Position numbers and translations under genes: made by a program. A stretch of DNA of 64,000 nt, from assembly GCA_032622095.1 (NCBI GenBank), contig CP136067.1:98258707-98322706 (forward strand). Reading direction: 5' to 3'. The stretch's first letter is position 1. Every line of letters starts with the position of its first letter. Positions 10,101-64,000 of the stretch are shown here, in pieces. The stretch comes from Siphonodentalium dalli. Its lineage: Eukaryota > Mollusca > Scaphopoda > Gadilida > Siphonodentaliidae. Under the pieces are notes generated by a model. That model saw nothing but the letters and a program-made list of their open reading frames with translations, did not search any database and was not told where the DNA came from.

Positions 10101-13100
10101 AAATCGGGTAATATTAGTTTGAATTATCAAGCAGGACAGACACACGAACACACGAACAGATGGACACGGTCAATCCAGTATACCGCCCATTCACTTCGAG
10201 AGTGAGGTTATAATATATGTTGACCCAGTGTGAATAATTAACTAACCTTGTATCTTGGCAAGATCCAGTGATTTCTCAAATGACCCCAAAGCAGCACTAT
10301 AGTCCTCCATCTTAACTGTGAACAATAATGACACATGTGTAACCATTATGTAGTCAAAGATTTGACAAGTGCAACAACATATAAAATTTACCTTATAAAA
10401 GTTTGGCAAAATGTGAGATATTCAATTTATATTTATATTTTGAGGGACAATGATAATTTGTAAAAAAAAAATTACAGCTTGACGTTTATAAGCTAGCTAT
10501 TATGTTACGTTTATGAATCATTAGATATCACTTTTTAGTCATGTTGGTGCTGTTGAATTAGAATTTCCTAAAAAAACAATATATTTATTTGGTTTTCATA
10601 ATTAGAACCCTGAATACATCTGATGGTCTACATCTTCCCAGAAAGTTTTTATGTAGTTTCCTGGGTATAAAAAATAAATATGATTCGAGGACACCTGTCT
10701 GGAAAAGTTTTAAAACAGACATCTGCGCGAAAACGTTTGGCGCGGATCAAAAGTGTACCAAGATGGGGAACTCTATCTTGTGAGCACCCTCAATCATGGC
10801 AAATTCCATTTCAACTATACATTTCACCACAATCAAAATAAAGTTTAATAAACCAATTTATTATGCCACCAAATCTTCAGTTCTATCTGTATTTTATTCA
10901 CAAAATAGATATTTGTAGTCTTGAGATCAGGATTTATAAAAATTATATTGTTGTTGCAATTGTGGCCTGGAAGAGATAGACGATCTTTAATAGATTCTCA
11001 CCTTCTGACTGAGCCATGAGAACGGAGGCCTGTAGACACCACATGACGTCGTCTGCCTCCTCGGCTGCGCACAGCGATTGCTCCCCGCACCCCAATGCTT
11101 CACTGAAGTCGTTGAGCTCCAGATAGCATCGTCCGATTTCGTGATGTAACCAGGTACTCTCAAGCATTGACTTACTTAAAGGTAACTTCTTCTCCCAGCT
11201 AAAATAGAGATAAGACATAAATTGTGAACATTCATATTCATAGGACCACCCTATCTCATGATGTAACCACGTACCATCAAGCATTGACTTACTTAAAGGT
11301 AACTTCTTCTCCCAGCTAAGATAGAGATAGACATAAATTGTGAACATTTATATTCATAGGACCACCCTATCTCATGATGTAACCACGTACCATCAAGCAT
11401 TGACTTACTTAAAGGTAACTTCTTCTCCCAGCTAAGATAGAGATAGACATAAATTGTGAACATTCATATTCATAGGACCACCCTATCTCATGATGTAACC
11501 ACCTACCATCAAGCATTGACTTACTTAAAGGTAACTTCTTCTCCCAGCTAAGATAGAGATAGACATAAATTGTGAACATTCATATTCATAGGACCACCCT
11601 ATCTCATGATGTAACCACGTACCATCAAGCATTGACTTACTTAAAGGTAACTTCTCCCAGCTAAGATAGAGATAGACATAAATTGTGAACATTCATATTC
11701 ATAGGACCACCCTATCTCATGATGTAACCACGTACCATCAAGCGATCACTTAGTTAAAGGTAACTTCTTCTCCCAGCTAAGATAGAGATAGACATAAATT
11801 GTGAACATTCATATTCATAGGACCACCCTATCTCATGATGTAACCACGTACCATCAAGCATTGACTTACTTAAAGGTAACTTCTTCTCCCAGCTAAGATA
11901 GAGATAGACATAAATTGTGAACATTCATATTCATAGGACCACCCTATCTCATGATGTAACCACGTACCATCAAGCATTGACTTACTTAAAGGTAACTTCT
12001 TCTCCCAGCTAAGATAGAGATAGACATAAATTGTGAACATTCATATTCATAGGACCACCCTATCTCATGATGTAACCACGTACCATCAAGCATTGACTTA
12101 CTTAAAGGTAACTTCTTCTCCCAGCTAAGATAGAGATAGACATAAATTGTGAACATTCATATTCATAGGACCACCCTATCTCATGATGTAACCACGTACC
12201 ATCAAGCGATCACTTAGTTAAAGGTAACTTCTTCTCCCAGTCAGCCTAGAATTTTCAAGGTTGTAGAAGTCACTTCTCCACATTTGCTTACTGGTATTAG
12301 GTTGAAGTGTACTAGCTAGCTGTTATCAGGGAGAAGTCATAATGGCTCAAAGTTCAATGGATACCCTAACATCACCATTCTATGATACATAATTATTATA
12401 CAAATCCCATTTATAAAACTATTGAAATGAGTAATTACACCATTATTTAGTGTTGAAACGATTAGTGGTTTTGAGGAATCGACTAGTCGCCAGAGGGAAT
12501 CGACTACTAGTCGACTAGTCGGACCCCTTCCGAAACTTACCGTTTTGTGCTCATATACGTATATAATTTGCCGTTTGTTTTGAGTACCAGTAACCAACTT
12601 TGCATTTTCGAACGCAAAGCAAGACGTGATTTAACACTATTTGCCGTGATTATTTGGCTTAATATCACTGAAGGTTAATAGGTTATTAATTTATCCCAGG
12701 TATATGTTTTATGACAAACAAATTACCATCCAGTTGATGTATGTATCTTAACGGTGGTGACATCACCTGATCGATCACGGAAACGCTACGGATTATGGAG
12801 TGGAAGCGCGTGCAACAATCGGAAACCGGTGCATTATTCTATGTTTTGTGTGAAAATGTTCCTTTAAAATTGATATGGTATCGTTGGTATGGTCTACCGG
12901 GCCGTACCGGTTCTTACATACAATCGAACATCGTTGTTTTCGAACTTGCCCAGTGTGCTTGTCACCGATTGACTTCACAAACGGGCGTACATGAAGAAAT
13001 GGAAGATATTTTGAGAAACGAACTTCATCTCCGACAGTCAAACAAAAGTTACAAAATAAATGTTATAACAGCTGTAGTGCGTACAAGCCTTTTATGCTCG

Positions 13101-32128: not shown

Positions 32129-32624
32129 GGCTTGAAATTGAAGTGACAATTCAAACTGACGTTTATGCACAATGATGCATGATGAAATACTCAAACAAAA
32201 TTGATATTTCAAGTTGCTGAAAGTTTTTATTGGAGGCAAATTTAATTGTATGCGTAATAAGACATTACAATCATCTTTTAGACAGACACTTTGATTTTAG
32301 TGGCCTGCAGGTTAAATGCATACATAGAACTTCAACATATCAGCTACGCCGCAAAACTATATTAGTTACACAGGCCCAGGCTGTGATTAGTTACTGACAA
32401 AATAATGACTTAGTTCAATTGCTGATGCTTATTCTTGGAATTAAGATTGATATATATTTTGAGGTTGCATGCAATCATTAATTCCGATTTATTTTATGAA
32501 TCTTATCTTTTCAAACATTGGAAAGAAATTCTGTATTACATATAATTGATATCTCTATCATATGGGCCATTTGAGCCTGAATTAAATAAACTATATATAT
32601 CCCCTTATACGATATTGTCCGATT

Positions 32625-32774
32625 GCTAAGTTGATTAATCAAGATAGCTATAAGTTGATTTAATCAAGATAGTAAGTTGATTAAGCAAGATAGATAATTT
32701 TATTAATCAAGATAGCTAAGTTGATTAATCAAGAGTGTAAAGTTGATTAATCAAGATAATAAGTTGATTAATCC
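32625..32774. repeat. AT-rich minisatellite with dyad TTGATTAATCAA, left of the array
   Basis: Six or seven imperfect 20-25 bp units (AAGTTGATTAATCAAGATAG). The same units resume at 45563-45624, right of the Helitron array. Confidence 0.85.
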
Positions 32775-32801
32775 AAAAAAAATAAAAATATATTTTTTAT
32801 A

Positions 32802-33451
32802 TCTCATATATGCGCAGACGAGATCTCGGAAACGGGTGGAGCTATCGACTTGAAATTTGCTATGTGAATGTATCTTGGCCCGGATACGAATTTTATCGGG
32901 TCGCCGAGCCCTGCGACGCCAGCTTCGAGCATGCGCAGACGAGATCTCGGAAACGGGCGGAGCTATCGACTTGAAATTTGGTATGTGAATGTATCTTGCC
33001 CCGGATACGAATTTTATCGGGTCGCCGAGCCCGTGCGACGCCAGCTTCGCGCATGCGCAGACCAGATCTCGGAAACGGGTGGAGCTATCGACTTGAAATT
33101 TGGTATGTAAATGTATCTTGCCCCGAATACGAATTTTATCGGGTCGCCGAGCCCGTGCGACGCCAGCTTCGCGCATGCGCAGACCAGATCTCGGAAACGG
33201 GTGGAGCTATCGACTTGAAATTTGCTATGTGAATGTATCTTGCCCCGGATACGAATTTCATCGGGTCGCCGAGCCCGTGCGACGCCAGCTTCCCGCATGC
33301 GCAGACCAGATCTCGGAAACGGGTAGAGCTATCGACTTGAAATTTGGTTTTTGAATAGCCCGGACAACGTCGGGCTCATGGAAACGGGTGGAGCTATCGA
33401 CTTGAAATTTGGTTTTTGAATAGCCCGGACAACGTCGGGCTCATCGGCTAG
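32802..33451 (+). mobile_element. Helitron-like unit 1 (internally deleted, 122-bp repeats)
   Basis: Keeps only TCTCATATAT of the 5' terminus, then jumps into 122-bp repeats (about four). The 3' terminal segment is duplicated: two GCCCGGACAACGTCGGGC hairpins at about 33357 and 33423, the second followed by CTAG. Confidence 0.75.
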
Positions 33452-34097
33452 TCTATTATATATTTTTGGAAGATCAGGGTGTGTGTGTGTGTGTCTGTCT
33501 GTCTGTCTGTGTGTTCGCGATGGACTCGAAAACGGCCGAGCCTATTTCGATGAAACTTGGTATGTGGGGATACTTTCGGTCGGGGAGTAGCATGGGCCTG
33601 TTAATTTGCCCGTGCGACGTGGCCTTGACATTGAAATCGGGTCATTTCAAGGTCGAACGCCCGAGTATCGCGGGATTTCGATGAAAATTGGTGTCTGGGG
33701 ATACTTTCGTATGGGGAGTGTCGTAAGCCTATTCCTTTGCCCGTGCGACGTGACCTTGACCTTGAAATCGGGTCAAATCGCGAATTTTTATGGGATTTCG
33801 ACGAAATTTGATACGTGGGGTTACTTTTGTCCACTGAGTGTTTTGGAGGGATCGATTCGTGACCCCGACCTGACCTTGACCTTCAAAATGATTAATTTGA
33901 GGTCAAATCGGGTAAAACCGGATGGATTTCGACGGGTACTTTTGTCGGGTACTTTTGTCCGGGCAGTGTTTTGGACGGGTCAAATCGTGACCCCCACCTC
34001 ACCTTTACCTTCAAAATGGACAATTCAAGGTCAAATCGCGCAATTCGCCGAAAAGCAGAGGGGAAACAGCCCGGACGAAGTCGGGTCCACCTGCTAG
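33452..34097 (+). mobile_element. Helitron-like unit 2 (family without the 122-bp repeat)
   Basis: Starts TCTATTATATATTTTTGG, has a GT/CTGT microsatellite, and ends in the hairpin GCCCGGACGAAGTCGGGT, CCACCTG and CTAG. The body is different from its neighbours: repeated modules GATTTCGAYGAAA and GTGACCTTGACCTT. A near-identical copy is unit 13 (39303-39954). Confidence 0.78.
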
Positions 34098-34733
34098 TCT
34101 CTTATATATTTTGAAGACCTCTGTTTGTTTGTTTGTTTGTATGTATGTCATTTATACAAATCTACGATTCTCGACCGATCGGGACGAAACTTGGTACGTG
34201 TGTGTAGTTTGACCAGGCGGTGGACGTTGTCGTATTGGCGAGCCCGTGCGGCGCCCGTGCAGCGCATGCGCAGGCGAGATCTCGGAAACGGGTGCAGCTA
34301 TCGACTTGAAATTTGCTATGTGAATGTATCTTGCCCCGGATACGAATTTTATCGGGTCGCCGAGCCCGTGCGACGCCAGCTTCGCGCATGCGCAGACGAG
34401 ATCTCGGAAACGGGCGGAGCTATCGACTTGAAATTTGCTATGTGAATGTATCTTGCCCCGGATACGAATTTTATCGGGTCGCCGAGCCCGTGCGACGCCA
34501 GCTTCGCGCATGCGCAGACGAGATCTCGCAAACGGGTGGAGCTATCGACTTGAAATTTGCTATGTGAATGTATCTTGCCCCGGATACGAATTTTATCGGG
34601 TCGCCGAGCCCGTGCGACGCCAGCTTCGCGCATGCGCAGACGAGATCTCGCAAACGGGTAGAGCTATCGACTTGAAATTTGGTTTTTGAATAGCCGGATG
34701 AATAGCCCGGACAACGTCGGGCTCATCGGCTAG
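34098..34733 (+). mobile_element. Helitron-like unit 3 (122-bp repeat family, full 5' end)
   Basis: Shows the standard layout: TCTCTTATATATTTTGAAG, a TTTG/CTGT tract, then ACCGATCGGGACGAAACTTG. After that come a diverged first repeat, four 122-bp repeats, a short GAATAGCCGGAT duplication, the hairpin and CTAG. Confidence 0.78.
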
Positions 34734-37700
34734 TCTATTATATATTTTGATGACCTCTGTTTGTTTGTCTGTCTGTCATTTATGCAAATCTACGATTCTT
34801 GACCGATCGGGACAAAACTTGGTACGTGTGTGTAGTGCGCAGACCAGATCTCGGAAACGGGTGGAGCTATCGACTTTTTTGGTTTTTGAATAGCCCGGAC
34901 AACGTCGGGGTCGTCGGCTAGTCTCATATATATTTTGAAGACCTCTGTCTGTCTGTATGTCTTTTATAGAATCGAAAACGGGTTGACCGATCGAGCTCAA
35001 ATTTCGTATATAAGTGTAAAATCCCACGGGGATCGTCGACATCGCATTTTGGACAAGCTCTGAGCACCGATTCTCCACTCCCAATCATCAAAATCACCGC
35101 AAACGCCACTTCGGGGGTTAAGGCATTAACGATCTTTATATTGACCATATACGGAGTTGTTAACGACGAACGCTCTTTGTTACAATCGACGCTGCTAAAC
35201 GGCTACCCATGCGTAAAATACGGATGCGGGACGAAATGCAATTATCTCGATTAAAAAGGCAGAATTGATCTGTAATAATCGACGCTGCTAAACGGCTACC
35301 CATGCGTAAAATACGGATGCGGGACGAAATGCAATTATCTCGATTAAAAAGGCAGAATTGATCTAAGAAGCGTTTGTTTACAATTCAACGACGGGGGAAG
35401 TTTAGGGGTATTTCATCTAGGAACGGGGACGAAACTTGGTATGTGTGTGTAGTTTGACCAGGCGGTCGACGTTGTCGTATTGGCGAGCCCGTGCGACGCC
35501 CGTGCAGCGCAGACGAGATCTCGGAAACGGGTGGAGCTATCGACTTGAAATTTGCTATCTGAATGTATCTTGCCCCGGATACGAATTTTATCGGGTCGCC
35601 GAGCCCGTGCGACGCCAGCTTCGCGCATGCGCAGACGAGATCTCGCAAACGGGTGGAGCTATCGACTTGAAATTTGCTATGTGAATGTATCTTGCCCCGG
35701 ATACGAATTTTATCGGGTCGCCGAGCCCGTGCGACGCCAGCTTCGCGCATGCGCAGACGAGATCTCGCAAACGGGTAGAGCTATCGACTTGAAATTTGGT
35801 TTTTGAATAGCCGGATGAATAGCCCGGACAACGTCGGGCTCATCGGCTAGTCTATTATATATTTTGATGACCTCTGTTTGTTTGTCTGTCTGTCATTTAT
35901 GCAAATCTACGATTCTTGACCGATCGGGACAAAACTTGGTACGTGTGTGTAGTGCGCAGACCAGATCTCGGAAACGGGTGGAGCTATCGACTTTTTTGGT
36001 TTTTGAATAGCCCGGACAACGTCGGGGTCGTCGGCTAGTCTCATATATATTTTGAAGACCTCTGTCTGTCTGTATGTCTTTTATAGAATCGAAAACGGGT
36101 TGACCGATCGAGCTCAAATTTCGTATATAAGTGTAAAATCCCACGGGGATCGTCGACATCGCATTTTGGACAAGCTCTGAGCACCGATTCTCCACTCCCA
36201 ATCATCAAAATCACCGCAAACGCCACTTCGGGGGTTAAGGCATTAACGATCTTTATATTGACCATATACGGAGTTGTTAACGACGAACGCTCTTTGTTAC
36301 AATCGACGCTGCTAAACGGCTACCCATGCGTAAAATACGGATGCGGGACGAAATGCAATTATCTCGATTAAAAAGGCAGAATTGATCTGTAATAATCGAC
36401 GCTGCTAAACGGCTACCCATGCGTAAAATACGGATGCGGGACGAAATGCAATTATCTCGATTAAAAAGGCAGAATTGATCTAAGAAGCGTTTGTTTACAA
36501 TTCAACGACGGGGGAAGTTTAGGGGTATTTCATCTAGGAACGGGGACGAAACTTGGTATGTGTGTGTAGTTTGACCAGGCGGTCGACGTTGTCGTATTGG
36601 CGAGCCCGTGCGACGCCCGTGCAGCGCAGACGAGATCTCGGAAACGGGTGGAGCTATCGACTTGAAATTTGCTATGTGAATGTATCTTGCCCCGGATACG
36701 AATTTTATCGGGTCGCCGAGCCCGTGCGACGCCAGCTTCGCGCATGCGCAGACGAGATCTCGCAAACTGGTAGAGCTATCGACTTGAAATTTGGTTTTTG
36801 AATAGCCGGATGAATAGCCCGGACAACGTCGGGCTCATCGGCTAGTCTATTATATATTTTGATGACCTCTGTTTGTTTGTCTGTCTGTCATTTATGCAAA
36901 TCTACGATTCTTGACCGATCGGGACAAAACTTGGTACGTGTGTGTAGTGCGCAGACCAGATCTCGGAAACGGGTGGAGCTATCGACTTTTTTGGTTTTTG
37001 AATAGCCCGGACAACGTCGGGGTCGTCGGCTAGTCTCATATATATTTTGAAGACCTCTGTCTGTCTGTATGTCTTTTATAGAATCGAAAACGGGTTGACC
37101 GATCGAGCTCAAATTTCGTATATAAGTGTAAAATCCCACGGGGATCGTCGACATCGCATTTTGGACAAGCTCTGAGCACCGATTCTCCACTCCCAATCAT
37201 CAAAATCACCGCAAACGCCACTTCGGGGGTTAAGGCATTAACGATCTTTATATTGACCATATACGGAGTTGTTAACGACGAACGCTCTTTGTTACAATCG
37301 ACGCTGCTAAACGGCTACCCATGCGTAAAATACGGATGCGGGACGAAATGCAATTATCTCGATTAAAAAGGCAGAATTGATCTGTAATAATCGACGCTGC
37401 TAAACGGCTACCCATGCGTAAAATACGGATGCGGGACGAAATGCAATTATCTCGATTAAAAAGGCAGAATTGATCTAAGAAGCGTTTGTTTACAATTCAA
37501 CGACGGGGGAAGTTTAGGACGGGTACCATGAATTTTCTGTCGTTCCTAGGAAGGGGGTATTTCATCTAGGAACGGGGACGAAACTTGGTATGTGCGTGTA
37601 GTTTGACCAGGCGGTCGACGTTGTCGTATTGGCGAGCCCGTGCGGCGCCCACTTCGCGCATGCGCAGACCAGATCTCGGAAACGGGTGGAGCTATCGACT

Positions 37701-37870
37701 TGAAATTAGCTATGTGAATGTATCTTTCCCCGGATACGAATTTTATCGGGTCGCCGAGCCCGTGCGACGCCAGCTTCGCGCATACGCAGACGAGATCTCG
37801 GAAACGGGGGAGCTATCGACTTGAAATTTGGTTTTTGAATAGCCCGGACAACGTCGGGCTCATCGGATAG
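34734..37870 (+). mobile_element. Helitron-like units 4-9: three recent copies of a two-unit block
   Basis: A 188-bp mini-unit (34734-34921) plus a 929-bp unit (34922-35850) form a 1117-bp block. It is repeated at 35851-36845 (one 122-bp repeat fewer, 995 bp) and 36846-37870. The copies look virtually identical, including an internal duplication with AATCGACGCTGCTAAACGGC. Unit 9 ends ATAG instead of CTAG. Confidence 0.78.
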
Positions 37871-39302
37871 TCTCATATATATTTTGAAGACCTCTGTTTG
37901 TCTGTCTGTCTGTCTGTCATTTATACAAATCTACGATTCTCGACCGATCGGGACGAAACTTGGTACGTGTGTGTAGTTTGACGAGGCGGTCGTCGTTGTC
38001 GTATTGGCGAGCCCGTGCGACGCCCGCTTCGCGCATGCGCAGACGAGATCTCGGAAACGGGTGGAGCTATCGACTTGAAATTTGCTATGTGAATGCATCT
38101 TGTCCCGGATACGAATTTTATCGGATCGCCGAGCCCTGCGACGCCAGCTTCGTGCATGCGCAGAGCTATCGGGTGGAGCTATCGACTTGAAATTTGGTAT
38201 GTGAATGTATCTTGCCGCGGATACGAACTTTATCGGGTCACCGAGCCCGTGCGACGCCAGCTTCGCGCATGCGCAGACCAGATCTCGGAAACGGGTAGAG
38301 CTATCGACTTGAAATTTTGTTTTTGAATAGCCCGGACAACGTCGGACTCATCGGCTAGTCTCATATATATTTTGAAGACCTCTGTCTTTTTTTGTCTGTT
38401 TGTCTGTCTGTCATTTATACAAATCTACGATTCTCGACCGATCGGGACGAAACTTGGTACGTGTGTGTAGTTTGACCAGGCGGTCGTCGTTGTCGTATTG
38501 ACAAGCCCGTGCGACGCCAGCTTCGCGCATGGGCAGACGACATATCGGAAACGGGTGGAGCTATCGACTTGAAATTTGGTATGTGAATGTATCTTGCCCC
38601 GGATGCGAATTTTATCGGGTCGCCGAGCCCGTGCGACGCCAGCTTCGCGCATGCGCAGATCAGATCTCGGAAACGGGTAGAGCTATCGACTTGAAATTTG
38701 GTTTTTGAATAGCCCGGATAACGTCGGGCTCATCGGCTAGTCTCATATATATTTTGAAGACCTCTGTCTGTTTGTCTGTTTGTCTGTCTGTCATTTATAC
38801 AAATCTACGATTCTCGACCGATCGGGACGAAACTTGGTACGTGTGTGTAGTTTGACCAGGCGGTCGTCGTTGTCGTATTGGCAAGCCCGTGCGACGCCCG
38901 TGCAGCGCAGACGAGATCTCGGAAACGGGTGGAGCTATCGACTTGAAATTTGCTATGTGAATGTATCTTGCCCCGGATACGAATTTTATCGTTGTCGCCG
39001 AGCCCGTGCGACGCCAGCTTCGCGCATGCGCAGACCAGATCTCGGAAACGGGTGGAGCTATCGACTTGAAATTTGCTATGTGAATGTATCTTGCCCCGGA
39101 TACGAATTTCATCGGGTCGCCGAGCCCGTGCGACGCCAGCTTCCCGCATGCGCAGACCAGATCTCGGAAACGGGTAGAGCTATCGACTTGAAATTTGGTT
39201 TTTGAATAGCCCGGACAACGTCGGGCTCATGGAAACGGGTGGAGCTATCGACTTGAAATTTGGTTTTTGAATAGCCCGGACAACGTCGGGCTCATCGGCT
39301 AG
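37871..39302 (+). mobile_element. Helitron-like units 10-12
   Basis: Three units (37871-38358, 38359-38740, 38741-39302), each with the TCTCATATATATTTTGAAG start, a CTGT tract, one to three 122-bp repeats, and the hairpin plus CTAG. From about 39020 the sequence repeats 33170-33451 with the same private variants (AATTTCATCGGG, CTTCCCGCATG). Confidence 0.76.
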
Positions 39303-39954
39303 TCTATTATATATTTTTGGAAGATCAGGGTGTGTGTGTGTGTATGTCTGTCTATCTGTCTGTCTGTGTGTTCGCGATGGACTCGAAAACGGCCGAGCCG
39401 ATTTCGATGAAACTTGGTATGTGGGGATACTTTCGGTCGGGGAGTAGCATGGGCTTGTTAATTTGCCCGTGCGACGTGGCCTTGGCATTGAAATCGGGTC
39501 ATTTCAAGGTCGAACGCCCGAGTATCGCGGGATTTCGATGAAAATTGGTGTCTGGGGATACTTTCGTATGGGGAGTGTCGTAAGCCTATTCCTTTGCCCG
39601 TGCGACGTGACCTTGACCTTGAAATCGGGTTAAATCGCAAAATTTTATGGGATTTCGACGAAATTTGATACGTGCGGTTACTTTTGTCCACTGAGTGTTT
39701 TGGAGGGATCGATTCGTGACCCCGACCTGACCTTGACCTTCAAAATGATCAATTTGAGGTCAAATCGGGTAAAACCGGATGGATTTCGACGGGTACTTTT
39801 GTCGGGTACTTTTGTCCGGGCAGTGTTTTGGACGGGTCAAATCGTGACCCCCACCTCACCTTTACCTTCAAAATGGACAATTCAAGGTCAAATCGCGCAA
39901 TTCGCCGAAAAGCAGAGGGGAAACAGCCCGGACGAAGTCGGGTCCACCTGCTAG
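39303..39954 (+). mobile_element. Helitron-like unit 13 (second copy of unit 2)
   Basis: Near-identical to 33452-34097, at an offset of 5851 bp shared with its left flank. The pair was therefore made by segmental duplication inside the array rather than by independent insertion. Confidence 0.78.
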
Positions 39955-41624
39955 TCTCTTATATATTTTGAAGACCTCTGTTTGTTTGTATGTATGTCAT
40001 TTATATAAATCTACGATTCTCGACCGATCGGGGCGAAACTTGGTACGTGTGTTTAGTTTGACCAGGCGGTCGTCCTTGTCGTATTGGCGAGCCCGTGCGA
40101 CGCCCGTGAATCGCATGCGCAGACGAGATCTCGGAAACGGGTGGAGCTATCGACTTGAAATTTGCTATGTGAATGTATCTTGCCCCGGATACGATTTTTA
40201 TCGGGTTGCCGAGCCCGTGCGACGCAAGCTTCGCGCATGCTCAGACCAGATCTCGGAAACGGGTGGAGCTATCGACTTGAAATTTGGTTTTTGAATAGCC
40301 ATGACAACGTCGGTCTCATCGGCTAGTCTCATATATATTTTGAAGACCTCTGTCTGTCTGTTTGTCTGTCTGTATGTTTGTCAGTCATTAATACAAATCT
40401 ACGATTCTCGACCGATCGGGACGAAACTTGGTACGTGTGTGTAGTTTGACCAGGCGGTGGACGTTGTCGTATTGGCGAGCCCGTGTGGCGCCCGTGCGGC
40501 GCATGCGCAGGCGAGATCTCGGAAACGGGTGGAGCTATCGACTTGAAATTTGCTATGTGAATGTATCTTGCCCCGGATACGAATTTTATCGGGTCGCCGA
40601 GTCCGTGCGACGCCAGCTTTGCGCATGCGCAGACGAGATCTCGGAAACGGGTGGAGCTATCGACTTGAAATTTGCTATCTGAATGTATCTTGCCCCGGAT
40701 ACGAATTTTATCGGGTCGCCGAGCCCGTGCGACGCCAGCTTCGCGCATGCGCAGACGAGATCTCGCAAACGGGTGGAGATATCGACTTGAAATTTGCTAT
40801 GTGAATGTATCTTCCCCCGGATACGAATTATATCGGGTCGCCGAGCCCGTGCGACGCCAGCTTCGCGCATGCGCAGACCAGATCTCGGAAACGGGTAGAG
40901 CTATCGACTTGAAATTTGGTTTTTGAATAGCCCGGATGAATAGCCCCGACAACGTCGGGCTCATCGGCTAGTCTCATATATATTTTGAAGACCTCTGTTT
41001 GTTTGTCTGTCTGTCTGTCTGTATGTCTGTCATTGATACAAATCTACGATTCTCGACCGATCGGGACGAAACTTGGTACGTGTGTGTAGTTTGATCAGGC
41101 GGTGGACGTTGTCGTATTGGCGAGCCCGTGCGGTGCCCGCTTCGCGCATGCGCAGACGAGATCTCGGAAACGGGTGGAGCTATCGACTTGAAATTTGCTA
41201 TGTGAATGTATCTTGCCCCGGATACGAATTGTATCGGGTCACCGAGCCCGTGCGACGCCAGCGTCGCGCATGTGACCTCTGTTTGTTTGTCTGTCTGTCA
41301 TTTATACAAATCTACGATTCTCGACCGATCGGGACAAAACTTGGTAAGTATGTGTAGTTTGACCAGGCGGTCGACGTTGTTGTATTGGTGAGCCCGTGCG
41401 GCGCCCGCTTCGCGCATGCGCAGACGAGATCTCGGAAACGGGTGGAGCTATCGATTTGAAATTTGGTATGTGAATGTATCTTGCCCCGGATACGAATTTT
41501 ATCGGGTCGCCGAGCCCGTGCGACACCAGCTTCGCGCATGCGCAGACCAGATCTCGGAAACGGGTGGAGCTATCGACTTTTTTGGTTTTTGAATAGCCCG
41601 GACAACGTCGGGGTCATCGGCTAG
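39955..41624 (+). mobile_element. Helitron-like units 14-16
   Basis: Units 39955-40326, 40327-40971 and 40972-41624. Unit 16 has an internal join at about 41272, where the 122-bp repeat passes into GTGACCTCTGTTTGTTTGTC without a CTAG. This is a recombinant junction rather than an end-to-end one. Confidence 0.74.
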
Positions 41625-43765
41625 TCTCATATATATTTTGAAGACCTCTGTCTGCCTGTATGTCCTTTATAGAATCGAAAACGGGTTGACCGATCGAGCT
41701 CAAATTTCGTATATAAGTGTAAAATCCCACGGGGATCGTCGACATCGCATTTTGGACAAGCTCTGAGCACCGATTCTCCACTCCCAATCATCAAAATCAC
41801 CGCAAACGCCACTTCGGGGGTTAAGGCATTAACGATCTTTATATTGACCATATACGGAGTTGTTAACGACGAACGCTCTTTATTACAATCGACGCTGCTA
41901 AACGGCTACCCATGCGTAAAATACGGATGCGGGACGAAATGCAATTATCTCGATTAAAAAGGCAGAATTGATCTGTAATAATCGACTCTGCTAAACGGCT
42001 ACCCATGCGTAAAATACGGATGCGGGACGAAATGCAATTATCTCGATTAAAAAGGCAGAATTGATCTAAGAAGCGTTTGTTTACAATTCAACGACGGGGG
42101 AAGTTTAGGACGGGTACCATGAATTTTCTGTCGTTCCTAGGAAGGGGGTATTTCATCTAGGAACGGGGACGAAACTTGGTATGTGTGTGTAGTTTGACCA
42201 GGCGGTCGACGTTGTCGTATTGGCGAGCCCGTGCGGCGCCCGCTTCGCGCATGCGCAGACGAGATCTCGGAAACGGATGGAGCTATCGACTTGAAATTTG
42301 CGATGTGAATGTATCTTGCCCCGGATACGAATTTTATCGGGTCGCCGAGCCCGTGCGACGCCAGCTTGGCGCATGCGCAGACCAGATCTCGGAAACGGGG
42401 GGAGCTATCGACTTGAAATTTGGTTTTCGAATAGCCCGGACAACGTCGGGCTCATCGGCTAGTCTCATATATATTTTGAAGACCTCTGTCTGTCTGTATG
42501 CCCCTTTATAGAGTCGAAAACGGCTGCACCGATCGAGACCAAATTTCGTATATAAGTGTAAAAACCCACGGGGATCGTCGACGTTGCATTTTGGACAAGC
42601 TCTGAGCACCGATTTTCCACTCCCAATCATCAAAATCACCGCAAACGCCACTTCGGGGGTTAAGGCGTCAACGATCTTTATATTGACCATATTCGGAGGT
42701 GTTAAGGATCAACCCTCTTTATTACAATCGAAGCTGCTAAACGGCTACCCATGCGTAAAATACGGATGCAAAACGAAACGCGGAATGCAATTATCTCGAT
42801 TAAAAAGGCAGAATGGGTTGTTGTGTCATACATGTCCTAGGAACTCGGGTCAGTCTTTGAGGGACGGGTACCATGAATTAATTCATGAAAAACAAAAAAT
42901 GCGTGTTGTGCTGTCATTCATAGGAAGGGAAGGGGGGTTTCCATCGGGTCAGTTTATCCCGATCGGGACGAAACTTGGTACGTGTGTGTAGTTTGACCAG
43001 GCGGTCGACGTTATCGTATTGGCGAGCCCGTGCGGCGCCCACTTCGCGCATGCGCAGACCAGATCTCGGAAACGGGTGGAGCTATCGACTTGAAATTTCC
43101 TATGTGAATGTATCTTGCCCCGGATACGAATTTTATGGGGTCGCCGAGCCCGTGCGACACCAACTTCGCGCATGCGCAGACGAGATCTCGCAAACGGGTG
43201 GAGCTATCGACTTGAAATTTGCTATGTGAATGTATCTTGCCCCGGATACGAATTTTATCGGGTCGCCGAGCCCGTGCGACGCCAGCTTCGCGCATGCGCA
43301 GACCAGATCTCGGAAACGGGTAGAGCTATCGACTTGAAATTTGGTTTTTGAATAGCCCGGATGAATAGCCCGGACAACGTCGGGCTCATCGGCTAGTCTA
43401 TTATATATTTTGAAGACCTCTGTTTGTTTGTCTGTCTGTCATTTATACAAATCTACGATTCTCGACCGATCGGGACAAAACTTGGTAAGTATGTGTAGTT
43501 TGACCAGGCGGTCGACGTTGTTGTATTGGTGAGCCCGTGCGGCGCCCGCTTCGCGCATGCGCAGACGAGATCTCGGAAACGGGTGGAGCTATCGATTTGA
43601 AATTTGCTATGTGAATGTATCTTGCCCCGGATACGAATTTTATCGGGTCGTCGAGCCCGTGCGACACCAGCTTCGCGCATGCGCAGACCAGATCTCGGAA
43701 ACGGGTGGAGCTATCGACTTTTTTGGTTTTTGAATAGCCCGGACAACGTCGGGGTCATCGGCTAG
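41625..43765 (+). mobile_element. Helitron-like units 17-19
   Basis: Units 41625-42462, 42463-43396 and 43397-43765. Unit 17 resembles units 5, 7 and 9. Unit 18 is a diverged relative (GAGTCGAAAACGGCTGCACC) fused to 122-bp repeats. Unit 19 resembles the second part of unit 16. Confidence 0.74.
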
Positions 43766-44818
43766 TCTTCTATACTATATATTTTGAGACTTCGTATATA
43801 TATATGTGTGTATATATGTACTTCATAGAATCCAAAACGCGTGTAAAGATTGAGCTCAAACTTCCTATATAAGTGTCAAATCCCACCGACACGACCGTGG
43901 TCGCGGTTTAGAGAAGCCCAGAGCACCCGTTCTCCAATCTCAAATCACCGCAAAGGCACGGCGGGGGTTAATCAAGTGATTATTTAATGAGCATTTGTTT
44001 TTGACGCATCTCTATAAAGAGCGTCTGTTTCCCATTCAACGTTATTCGTATCTGCAGAGTTATACGGGAACGCAAACGTTATCGCTCGAAATTTATTCCC
44101 TGCGGGCACGGATGGCGCGCTCTGTTTTTACAGTATATACCGAAATCATCCCAGATAATCACAAATATAGCATCAGATTTCTCCCCAGATATACCGTTAT
44201 AAAGCTACTGGAATCTGCCAATCTACGGGAAATTCCAGGGAATGCCGATTGAGCTCAAACTTGCTACCTACGGGAAGTGTCATATATATGAGTATGTCCT
44301 TTATAGACTCTAACCGATTGAGCTCAAACTTGCTAAATAAGAAAATAGCCACCAAGCCGTAAATATCAACAACAACGATATTACTAAATACACGTTTTCG
44401 GCAATGTGAGAGTTTTCGGGGAGCCGTGATGCCAACAACAATGACCCGAAGACAGATTTCCCGACGGGAAGCGTTTGTTTTAAATTCAATGCAATGTTAT
44501 CGTAGAGAGATTTCACGAAACAAAGAATGCGTTGTCTGTCGTTCCTAGGAAGGGGGGGATTTCTACGGGTAAATTTTTCCGCCAGAAACAAAAAAATTAA
44601 TTAAAACAATTTACAATTTAATTAAAACAATTTAAAATTAAAAAAAATTAACAATAAAAAAACAATTCAGAAACAAAATATATTAAATTTAAAAAACATT
44701 AAATTCATATTCAAAAATAAAAAACAAAAATAAATAAAAACAAAATAATTACAAAAATGTCATGTTTCTGAAACAAAGCCATGGGACGAATGTCGCCAGT
44801 GGCGGGCTAACCTGCTAG
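43766..44818 (+). mobile_element. Helitron-like unit 20 (third family)
   Basis: Starts TCTTCTATACTATATATTTT and ends GTCGCCAGTGGCGGGC, TAACCTG, CTAG. The body lacks 122-bp repeats and includes a 170-bp A-rich tract (about 44583-44750). It shares only short motifs (GAGCTCAAACTTGC) with the others. Confidence 0.7.
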
Positions 44819-45541
44819 TCTACTATATATTTTGAGACTTCCGTATATATGTGCGCTATAGATTCGAGATCAGTCTATGTAAACATACACTCAGATTCAT
44901 ACTGATACTATTTTTGATATGTGGGTATGTAGTTTACTCCAGACTGATTCGAGATCTGCTGGGTCGATTGAACTCAAACTTGCTGTGTAAGGTTAACAAC
45001 CCACAGGCAGTGCACTCGGACCATTCGCGAGCCCGTGCGACCACTCATTCGCCCTTCAACTGCCACTGTAATGGAGATTGATGGGCTAATCGCGTGATAA
45101 TTAATGAGCGTTTGTAGATGAGGCGTCGCTATTAAAGAGCGTTTATCTACTTTAGTGAAATACGGCCTTTGACCGTCTCGGAAACTGGGGATATCGAGAC
45201 GAAATTTTGTACTTAGGGGTTCCAAGGGACGGGGGAGATTTTCGTCGGGTCAGTTTGTCCGCCCGATGTGACATTCACCTTGAAACGGGTACCCACAAAT
45301 GACCTTGGGCGATATATCGGTCGTCAGCGGTGACATCGACGTGAAATTTGTTAAAATGGTCAACTCGGGAGAGGAATATTTTTGTCGGGTTATTTTGTCC
45401 ACTCAACATGACCTTGAAGCGGGTACCCGCAAATGATTGCACGCTGTCGGCGTGCCTGTACGGGGTTACCTTGAAAAACAAAAATTAATGGATCGACCAA
45501 ACCATGGGACCAATCCCGCCAGTGGCGGGCTAATCTGCTAG
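44819..45541 (+). mobile_element. Helitron-like unit 21 (terminal unit)
   Basis: Starts TCTACTATATATTTTGAGAC and ends with the perfect hairpin CCCGCCAGTGGCGGG, then 8 bp, then CTAG followed by T. It is related to unit 20 at both ends. It defines the 3' border of the whole array. Confidence 0.72.
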
Positions 45542-45562
45542 TATATTACTGTATATATATAG

Positions 45563-45624
45563 CTAAGTTGATTAATCAAGACAGTAAAGTTGATTAATCA
45601 AGATAGTAAGTTGATTAAGCAAGC
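45563..45624. repeat. AT-rich minisatellite with dyad TTGATTAATCAA, right of the array
   Basis: Three units of the minisatellite also found at 32625-32774. The two blocks flank the Helitron concatemer, so it inserted in or next to a pre-existing array. Confidence 0.82.
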
Positions 45625-61095: not shown

Positions 61096-61135
61096 TAATG
61101 GTCCACAAAAATAGAAATAGTATATCATTCTGTCG

Positions 61136-64000
61136 CTCGGCTTCTCAATGTTGTCTCTACAATCTGTCCATTAATACAGGCCATAAATCTAGCTTGGCTT
61201 CTCAATGTTGTCTCTACAATCTGTCCATTAATACAGGCCATAAATATAGCTCGGCTTCTCAATGTTGTCTCTACAATCTGTCCATTAATACAGGCCATAA
61301 ATATAGCTCGGCTTCTCAATGTTGTCTCTACAATCTGTCCATTAATACAGGCCATAAATATAGCTTGGCTTCACAATGTTGTCTCTACAATCTGTCCATT
61401 AATACAGGCCATAAATATAGCTTGGCTTCACAATGCGGTCTCTACAATCTGTCTGTTAATACAGGCCATAAATATAGCTTGGCTTCACAATGTTGTCTCT
61501 ACAATCTGTCCATTAATACAGGCCATAAATATAGCTTGGCTTCACAATGTTGTCTCTACAATCTGTCCATTAATACAGGCCATAAATATAGCTTGGCTTC
61601 ACAATGCGGTCTCTACAATCTGTCTGTTAATACTGGCCATAAATATAGCTTGGCTTCACAATGTTGTCTCTACAATCTGTCCATTAATACAGGCCATAAA
61701 TATAGCTTGGCTTCACAATGCGGTCTCTACAATCTGTCCATTAATACAGGCCATAAATATAGCTTGGCTTCACAATGTTGTCTCTACAATCTGTCCATTA
61801 ATACAGGCCATAAATATAGCTTGGCTTCACAATGTTGTCTCTACAATCTGTCCATTAATACAGGCCATAAATATAGCTTGGCTTCACAATGCGGTCTCTA
61901 CAATCTGTCTGTTAATACTGGCCATAAATATAGCTTGGCTTCACAATGTTGTCTCTACAATCTGTCCATTAATACAGGCCATAAATATAGCTTGGCTTCA
62001 CAATGCGGTCTCTACAATCTGTCCATTAATACAGGCCATAAATATAGCTTGGCTTCACAATGTTGTCTCTACAATCTGTCCATTAATACTGGCCATAAAT
62101 CTAGCTTGGCTTCACAATGTGGTCTCTACAATCTGTCCATTAATACAGGCCATAAATATAGCTTGGCTTCACAATGTGGTCTCTACAATCTGTCTGTTAA
62201 TACAGGCCATAAATATAGCTTGGCTTCTCAATGTGGTCTCTACAATCTGTCCATTAATACTGGCCATAAATCTAGCTCGGCTTCACAATGCGGTCTCTAC
62301 AATCTGTCTGTTAATACAGGCCATAAATCTAGCTCGGCTTCACAATGCGGTCTCTACAATCTGTCTGTTAATACAGGCCATAAATCTAGCTTGGCTTCAC
62401 AATGCGGTCTCTACAATCTGTCTGTTAATACAGGCCATAAATCTAGCTCGGCTTCACAATGCGGTCTCTACAATCTGTCCATTAATACAGGCCATAAATA
62501 TAGCTTGGCTTCACAATGTGGTCTCTACAATCTGTCCATTAATACAGGCCATAAATATAGCTTGGCTTCACAATGCGGTCTCTACAATCTGTCTGTTAAT
62601 ACAGGCCATAAATATAGCTTGGCTTCACAATGCGGTCTCTACAATCTGTCTGTTAATACAGGCCATAAATATAGCTTGGCTTCACAATGTGGTCTCTACA
62701 ATCTGTCCATTAATACAGGCCATAAATCTAGCTCGGCTTCACAATGCGGTCTCTACAATCTGTCTGTTAATACAGGCCATAAATCTAGCTCGGCTTCACA
62801 ATGCGGTCTCTACAATCTGTCTGTTAATACAGGCCATAAATCTAGCTCGGCTTCACAATGCGGTCTCTACAATCTGTCCATTAATACAGGCCATAAATCT
62901 AGCTCGGCTTCACAATGCGGTCTCTACAATCTGTCTGTTAATACAGGCCATAAATCTAGCTCGGCTTCACAATGCGGTCTCTACAATCTGTCTGTTAATA
63001 CAGGCCATAAATATAGCTCGGCTTCACAATGCGGTCTCTACAATCTGTCTGTTAATACAGGCCATAAATATAGCTTGGCTTCACAATGTGGTCTCTACAA
63101 TCTGTCCATTAATACAGGCCATAAATCTAGCTCGGCTTCACAATGCGGTCTCTACAATCTGTCTGTTAATACTGGCCATAAATATAGCTTGGCTTCACAA
63201 TGCGGTCTCTACAATCTGTCCATTAATACAGGCCATAAATCTAGCTCGGCTTCACAATGCGGTCTCTACAATCTGTCTGTTAATACAGGCCATAAATCTA
63301 GCTCGGCTTCACAATGCGGTCTCTACAATCTGTCTGTTAATACAGGCCATAAATCTAGCTTGGCTTCACAATGTGGTCTCTACAATCTGTCCATTAATAC
63401 AGGCCATAAATCTAGCTTGGCTTCACAATGCGGTCTCTACAATCTGTCTGTTAATACAGGCCATAAATATAGCTTGGCTTCACAATGCGGTCTCTACAAT
63501 CTGTCTGTTAATACAGGCCATAAATCTAGCTCGGCTTCACAATGCGGTCTCTACAATCTGTCTGTTAATACAGGCCATAAATCTAGCTTGGCTTCACAAT
63601 GTTGTCTCTACAATCTGTCTGTTAATACAGGCCATAAATATAGCTTGGCTTCACAATGCGGTCTCTACAATCTGTCTGTTAATACAGGCCATAAATCTAG
63701 CTCGGCTTCTCAATGTTGTCTCTACAATCTGTCTGTTAATACAGGCCATAAATCTAGCTTGGCTTCACAATGTGGTCTCTACAATCTGTCTGTTAATACA
63801 GGCCATAAATCTAGCTTGGCTTCACAATGCGGTCTCTACAATCTGTCCATTAATACAGGCCATAAATATAGCTCGGCTTCACAATGCGGTCTCTACAATC
63901 TGTCTGTTAATACAGGCCATAAATATAGCTTGGCTTCACAATGCGGTCTCTACAATCTGTCTGTTAATACAGGCCATAAATATAGCTTGGCTTCACAATG
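61136..64000. repeat. 57-bp satellite array, about 50 copies, open at the window end
   Basis: Unit contains GGCTTCACAATGCGGTCTCT, ACAATCTGTC(C/T)(A/G)TTAATACAGG and CCATAAAT(A/C)TAGCT. Main variants are linked: GTTGTCTC tends to go with CTGTCCATT, and GCGGTCTC with CTGTCTGTT. Position 5' AAAT(A/C)TAG also alternates in blocks, as expected from unequal exchange. It probably lies in a long PAXIP1 intron 3. Confidence 0.95.

Follow-up and report, generated by a model that had tools for sequence, protein, structure and literature searches.

Introduction

Helitron transposons of the Helraiser and Helibat kind have TC and CTAG ends, a hairpin, an A|T target and a Rep/helicase (RepHel) enzyme (PMC4778049, PMC5876387). 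Their AT preference is most marked on what will be the 3' flank, and an AT-rich run lies near the left-end cut; the portions of these accounts drawn on here do not equate the left end with the target. Head-to-tail arrays have been reported for Myotis and Bombyx, together with adjacent unlike Helitrons in bat and maize, and were explained by bypass of the terminator (PMC4067079). Here we describe a 12.7-kb array of 21 head-to-tail Helitron-like units in the scaphopod Siphonodentalium dalli, contained in a stretch of 64,000 nucleotides (C7:98258707-98322706, contig CP136067.1; hereafter the window), and its relatives in the searched genome (2.23 Gb, 9 contigs). In contrast to the published reading of the Myotis and Bombyx arrays, junction counts and the order and age of two families, alpha and beta, favor insertion at the 5' border of a resident copy. 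We think it probable that canonical Helitrons were stacked here, for the most part by one insertion after another at a resident 5' border, and that unequal exchange then remodeled the array.

Several smaller cases come close to this arrangement. One FoHeli copy of Fusarium lies 2 bp upstream of the 5' end of another, and a Metarhizium tandem comprises three copies for which the authors proposed 5'-end insertion or a rolling circle (PMC5148889). These are single cases with non-canonical termini, whereas the S. dalli junctions have canonical ends and number in the thousands. In IS608, an HUH transposase element of a different family (IS200/IS605), the left-end cut site TTAC is likewise the target (PMC5934647); there recognition of the target relies on base pairing with the transposon, and the target remains on the left flank, whereas the matching run described below lies inside the element. 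Internal short tandem repeats are carried by a satellite-bearing Helentron of Crassostrea (PMC7492417), as alpha carries internal 122-bp repeats; the Crassostrea arrays are internal to the element, whereas the units of the array described here are whole elements. Tandem Helitrons are already known, and the new parts are direction, scale and the use of an end as target. Our literature search, to which key subscription papers were external, found no statement that the left end is the target, and we do not claim that none exists.

Exact junctions in the window and across the genome

The array occupies window positions 32802 to 45541 on the + strand, with its length given as assembled. Its outer borders are exact, with A at 32801 followed by TC, and CTAG at 45538-45541 followed by T, as a first-pass annotation made from the sequence alone had stated. 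That annotation also counted twenty exact CTAG|TC junctions; there are indeed 20 internal junctions, of which 19 are exact and one reads ATAG|TC (37867-37870). All 21 units open with TC and lie on the + strand, 20 close with CTAG and one closes with ATAG. A pattern combining the junction with the following 5' end (up to 3 mismatches) matched 19 times in the window versus 0.10 expected in shuffles. CTAGTC occurs 19 times on the + strand of the array and never on the other strand; the remaining 51 kb of the window hold 8 and 13 occurrences. By our own assignment from end sequences, 17 units are alpha (1, 3-12 and 14-19), two are beta (2 and 13) and two are delta-type (20 and 21), the latter occupying the 3' end of the array. 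The claim of at least three families in one array is borne out by these ends.

Such junctions are abundant in the genome. The junction pattern CTAGTCTMWTATATATTTTGA had 10,896 genome matches and its reversal had 1. A longer exact alpha 5' end is preceded by A in 7,556 cases and by CTAG in 8,303, a CTAG share of 52%; these genome-wide counts include local multi-copy blocks. Among 40 sampled alpha starts flanked by A, the first recognized 3' end is followed by a Helitron 5' end in 22 and by other flank in 14, while four had no 3' end in reach. The 40 loci are the first listed on C1, with overlaps and the dense cluster at C1:13.759-13.787 Mb skipped; the sample retains paralogues, and in a few loci (e.g. 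L004 and L033) the first 3' end is that of a later unit. Parsed units were assigned by end patterns, with 14 of 148 mixed or unassigned; the parser found 16 of the 21 window units and missed the others. An assembly artifact is unlikely as the source of the phenomenon, given that junctions lie at dispersed places and that paralogous arrays agree at up to 99%, although it may affect the exact length of the window array.

Two sampled loci hold unusual structures. L051 (244-2241) has two chimeric Helitron units that combine the 5' end of alpha with the 3' end of delta. At a Helitron junction in L061, positions 334-945 are an element of 0.6 kb whose ends, GGTGACACTCCACAGTTTC, are inverted; CTAG borders it on either side, perhaps as a target duplication.

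Order and age of the families

Median divergence between loci is 6.0% for alpha, 14.2% for beta and 18.0% for delta. Genome-wide, exact junctions with alpha 5' of beta number 1,751 versus 436 with beta 5' of alpha. In C1:0-132.9 Mb, which both junction lists cover, alpha stands 5' of beta at 83 merged loci versus 12 for the reverse order (binomial P 3e-14, raw counts). This count took the first 100 listed junctions each way, which merged into 83 and 58 loci, and used a single exact pattern per direction, unscaled by the numbers of each end. Among exact beta 5' ends flanked by either A or an alpha end, 29% (1,751/6,050) have alpha.

Over a 170-bp stretch, divergence is 15.1% for beta behind alpha, 15.9% for A-flanked beta and 7.6% for alpha. 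Alpha and beta distances are uncorrelated across alpha-beta pairs (Mantel r 0.02, P 0.41; 15 of 17 pairs, with paralogues L053 and L048 removed). Since beta partners are as diverged as A-flanked beta and the distances are uncorrelated, alpha joined old, separately dispersed beta copies, and alpha-beta pairs did not spread as blocks.

Match between left ends and target sites

A target profile was derived from 100 listed non-junction alpha 3' flanks, collapsed to 78 and reduced to 70 by removal of 7 Helitron-like flanks and 1 of pure TA. The flank pattern demanded T at +1 and a base other than C at +2. In the 70 cleaned flanks, the T is followed by loose positions and then by an A/T fraction of 0.94-0.99 at +6 to +11. 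Upstream of the target (33 loci), the A/T fraction is 0.48-0.94, apart from the demanded A. The A/T run of the target flanks spans about +5 to +12, and the 5' ends of alpha and beta (TCTCATATATATTTT and TCTATTATATATTTT) are arranged likewise and in register with it. When A|T sites were ranked on +3 to +13, the alpha border fell in the top 0.76%, the beta border in the top 0.24% and the median real target at 3.7%; on +3 to +16, the corresponding ranks were 2.6%, 1.2% and 2.0%. Up to 7 of the 100 listed flanks enter another Helitron 5' end a few bases off its border, although two of these 7 could represent a changed TC instead.

Helitron identity of the units

A PF14214 profile search of the genome gave at least 151 matches, with 150 of 457 candidates scored. 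One match (C1:13743912-13744451, - strand) sits within an 8.7-kb element (C1:13739545-13748219, - strand) that has an alpha 5' end and a 3' end, GCCCGGACAACGTCGGGCACATCGGCTAG, one base from the alpha consensus. Its open reading frame (ORF) of 1,614 amino acids contains Helitron_like_N (PF14214, 9.4e-56) and a PIF1 helicase (5.3e-68). A Rep/helicase element with alpha-type ends, of the kind that the first-pass annotation had proposed to look for, is therefore present in this genome. Because the ends are shared, the RepHel of this element probably moves alpha. In the ORF of an element at L034/L045, N-terminal repeats of RepHel (residues 148-218) match Pfam STPRs, the score and three amino acid peptide repeats (3e-14).

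The hairpin reported before CTAG holds for alpha (z -2.4 versus shuffles) and delta (z -2.5); in beta, the 3' end folds no better than shuffles (z -0.04). Each value comes from one sequence.

Empty sites are available for arrays elsewhere. The site of the L056 array is part of a repeat with 22 further copies listed besides L056 and L060; of 16 copies fetched, 15 are empty and continuous at the target, with no target duplication. Fourteen of these 15 join as A|T (GTTTA|TAGATATATATACC or near variants), and L083 has a variant base. The exact 3'-border pattern of this site had two matches, L056 and L060. At the L001 site, a third copy is likewise empty and lacks a target duplication, so that the duplications which would have spoken against Helitrons are missing at the empty copies of two array sites. 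In L084, an alpha-type 5' end, whose 3' counterpart was out of reach, starts at the exact point where 15 paralogues are empty. Collectively, the ends, the hairpin of alpha and delta, the duplication-free A|T insertion and the Rep and Pif1-type helicase domains indicate, at the level of sequence, that the array units are canonical Helitrons (RepHel, Helitron1 type).

Organization of the window array

The features of the array and its flanks are as follows.

32802..45541, + strand: whole array of 21 head-to-tail Helitron-like units, 12.7 kb as assembled, with A at 32801 and T at 45542
32802..33451, + strand: unit 1, alpha; begins TCTCATATAT, directly followed by GCGCAG, with most of the alpha 5' region missing
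33452..34097, + strand: unit 2, beta; 98.6% identity with unit 13
34098..34733, + strand: unit 3, alpha; TCTCTT start
34734..37870, + strand: units 4-9, in which a 188-bp short alpha (4, 6, 8) alternates with a long alpha (5, 7, 9)
37867..37870, + strand: the single degenerate junction, ATAG|TC, joining units 9 and 10
37871..39302, + strand: units 10-12, alpha
39303..39954, + strand: unit 13, beta; inside the duplicated block 33028-34447 = 38884-40296
39955..43765, + strand: units 14-19, alpha; unit 17 is 98% identical to units 7 and 9
43766..44818, + strand: unit 20, delta-type; starts TCTTCTATACTATATATTTTGAGAC and ends GGCGGGCTAACCTGCTAG; its best sampled relative (L049) is 96% alike
44819..45541, + strand: unit 21, delta-type, the 3'-most unit; only 80% alike to the nearest of 8 other sampled delta units
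32627..32773, no strand: 22-bp minisatellite in the 5' flank
45559..45623, no strand: further copies of the 22-bp minisatellite in the 3' flank

Units 4-9 are a two-unit block in three tandem copies, with units 4, 6 and 8 100% identical. Longer blocks recur as well: 33028-34447 matches 38884-40296 (96.1%), 34361-35686 matches 35484-36803 (98.9%) and 36948-37905 matches 41539-42497 (98.0%). Because units 4, 6 and 8 are identical and kilobase blocks recur at 96-99%, part of the array was multiplied in place. Unequal exchange has thus also multiplied blocks in the window array, which in this respect are of the satellite type. Block multiplication is insufficient for the mixed-family junctions. 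Simple tandem duplication had been set aside by the first-pass annotation as unable to join different families at exact ends; it indeed cannot create the first mixed exact junction, but mixed blocks were later duplicated. We conclude that the window array is probably a mixed product, of stacking and afterwards of block duplication.

Duplicated loci were also considered as a source of growth direction. The differences within L001/L053, L056/L060, L047/L048 and L022/L025 look like the outcome of exchange or deletion within arrays rather than of a clean gain at the 5' end. Runs of junctions with beta 5' of alpha occur at C1:188.850-188.869 Mb, spaced about 1.1-1.2 kb apart, and at C2:103.71-103.80 Mb, several kb apart; both appear to be Helitron blocks turning satellite-like.

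No open frame of at least 190 amino acids occurs anywhere in the window. The left neighbor of the array (window 32480-32600) has 99-100% matches at 38 other places among those listed, and seems to be a young repeat ending at ...AAATAAACTATATATA, just before the minisatellite. An empty allele with the minisatellite intact, which the first-pass annotation had looked to, was not seen: the 7 left-neighbor copies read all diverge after ...AAATAAACTATATATA, before the minisatellite. Elsewhere in the window, 61135-64000 holds a 57-bp tandem repeat (about 50 copies, 95%) that continues past the window end, and 11142-12240 holds a 116-bp tandem repeat (9.5 copies, 97%), for which a 461-bp period fits too.

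Discussion

A Helitron inserted in an A|T target would read A-TC...CTAG-T, with A|T again at its left border and G|T at its right. On the 5' side, and there only, the target would therefore be restored, from the A of the flank and the first T of the element. From this sequence logic, insertion at the left border would leave a perfect, traceless CTAG|TC joint between any two families, and younger units would be expected 5' of older ones. Helraiser transposase makes a single-strand cut in vitro between the flank and the 5'-TC (PMC4778049). RepHel would likewise start transposition by nicking the resident copy between A and TC, and we suggest that the same nick may receive another excised Helitron, so that donor site and target site would be one. 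The resident 5' end would then gather new units on its 5' side, and repeats within and between units would permit block duplication and deletion, from which much of the window array may derive.

Occupancy also favors the border. Where ordinary sites equal the beta border in score, about 3.7e-4 of them are occupied, versus 0.29 of beta borders, an approximately 800-fold difference for which the site-count background is 48 kb of the window. With equally good A|T sites filled only at about 3-4e-4, the motif alone was rejected as the cause. The border itself seems to be recognized by the enzyme, most simply because transposition has to begin with a nick at precisely this point, between A and TC.

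Several observations weigh against growth at the 5' border, or against parts of it. The motif alone predicts far too few junctions, and recognition of the border is an inference from that shortfall. The flank searches demanded an A before or a T after the element and so carry no weight for the A|T rule. Copies of Helraiser that transposed again did not cluster near their donor sites (PMC4778049), unlike the preference for resident borders seen here. Delta also fits poorly. The delta 5' ends are mostly off-profile, the three tested having ranks of 4%, 18% and 27% among A|T sites. No delta order is apparent: alpha stands 5' of delta at 5 junctions and delta 5' of alpha at 6, in a small sample biased towards alpha, and the delta-first junctions count in the paralogues L047/L048 and the two alpha-delta chimeras of L051. 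It may be that part of the delta copies remained active. Within alpha no age gradient is seen: the 3'-most unit is the less typical one at 12 of 25 loci (P 0.71), and alpha may be too uniform for a gradient to show. The window itself shows beta 5' of alpha twice, from one duplicated event. Finally, no allele or paralogue pair with beta alone versus alpha-beta at one site was found among 15 flanks (40 candidates scored, over half from one repeat), nor with 10 further locus flanks, for which the 40 places listed were all of window flanks; the duplicated loci compared had both alpha and beta already.

Rolling-circle read-through, in which the terminator is bypassed or a circle is copied repeatedly so that concatemers or composites insert in one event, is the published reading of the bat and silkworm tandems (PMC4067079). 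Tandem arrays have been cited as support for rolling-circle transposition (PMC5876387), and Helraiser head-to-tail circles exist (PMC4778049). In paralogues L004 and L008, an alpha 5' end (index 251) follows ...CATCGGCTA as CTA|TC, the G being absent; the hairpin there is altered (CCGTAC), and the terminator is perhaps broken. Neighboring alpha units are also slightly more alike than chance, averaging 94.1% identity (median 94.8) versus 92.0% (93.2) between loci (P 0.001; 32 adjacent and 4,729 between-loci pairs, window pairs excluded). This small but significant excess, which itself counts against stacking by separate insertions, means that a part of the pairs arose by local copying. The two lengths, however, agreed within 5 bp in 1 of 32 adjacent pairs versus 4.1% at random, and the unequal lengths and sequences disfavor simultaneous birth for most sampled pairs. 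For alpha-beta, read-through concatemers as suggested in the first-pass annotation are disfavored: the 15 pairs show no co-dispersal, beta beside alpha is as diverged as A-flanked beta, and concatemers should show no preferred order between two families. We regard read-through as an unlikely origin of these arrays.

Satellite-like growth would start from a dimer or a mixed seed formed by chance, which unequal crossing-over or gene conversion then multiplies in place. It is clear for part of the window, where identical units and near-identical blocks record it. It is seen too in a 98% alpha duplication held by L060 and in long regular runs elsewhere (e.g. C1:188.85-188.87 Mb). Such growth can make neither the first mixed exact-end junction nor many short arrays at dispersed loci, and in the 32 sampled adjacent alpha pairs, sequence differs by a mean of about 6% and length is in most cases unequal. 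As the main source of the arrays it is improbable.

Were new units to insert behind an earlier one, at its 3' CTAG|T end, where the first-pass annotation placed a trap that captures new Helitrons, the joints would also read exactly CTAG|TC. Helraiser uses non-AT sites at a low rate (46/1,751; PMC4778049), the 436 exact junctions with beta 5' of alpha exist, and delta precedes alpha as commonly as it follows in the small sample. That side, however, offers G|T, and young alpha stands 5' of older beta at 83 loci versus 12; 3'-end insertion is disfavored for alpha and beta and, overall, very unlikely. The idea of a trap survives, with a Rep/helicase element, empty sites and thousands of junctions, although the 5' border is favored as its location.

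Homologous recombination of an extrachromosomal Helitron circle, a form known from other systems (PMC5876387, PMC4778049), with a resident of the same family would add a tandem unit and produce exact CTAG|TC and alpha-alpha arrays, but it allows no exact alpha-beta joining, produces no order and is a highly improbable account.

Growth at the resident 5' border thus remains the reading we favor, and to earlier descriptions of tandem Helitrons this genome adds the number of junctions, the direction and age order of alpha and beta, and the match between left end and target. More tentatively, the left end may be a Helitron's own best target in general, so that arrays would be stacks with a direction, their 3'-most unit the oldest, in which the succession of family activity is recorded, and the tandem Helitrons long cited in support of rolling-circle concatemers may for the most part be such stacks. 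Target choice by Helitrons is unsettled, and tandem arrays have so far been counted as evidence of rolling-circle read-through. If arrays grow at the resident 5' border, that evidence changes meaning: one recognition would account for both the target and the donor cut, and a history of transposon families could be read from arrays. Growth at the 5' border would also provide a simple route from dispersed transposons to satellite-like blocks.

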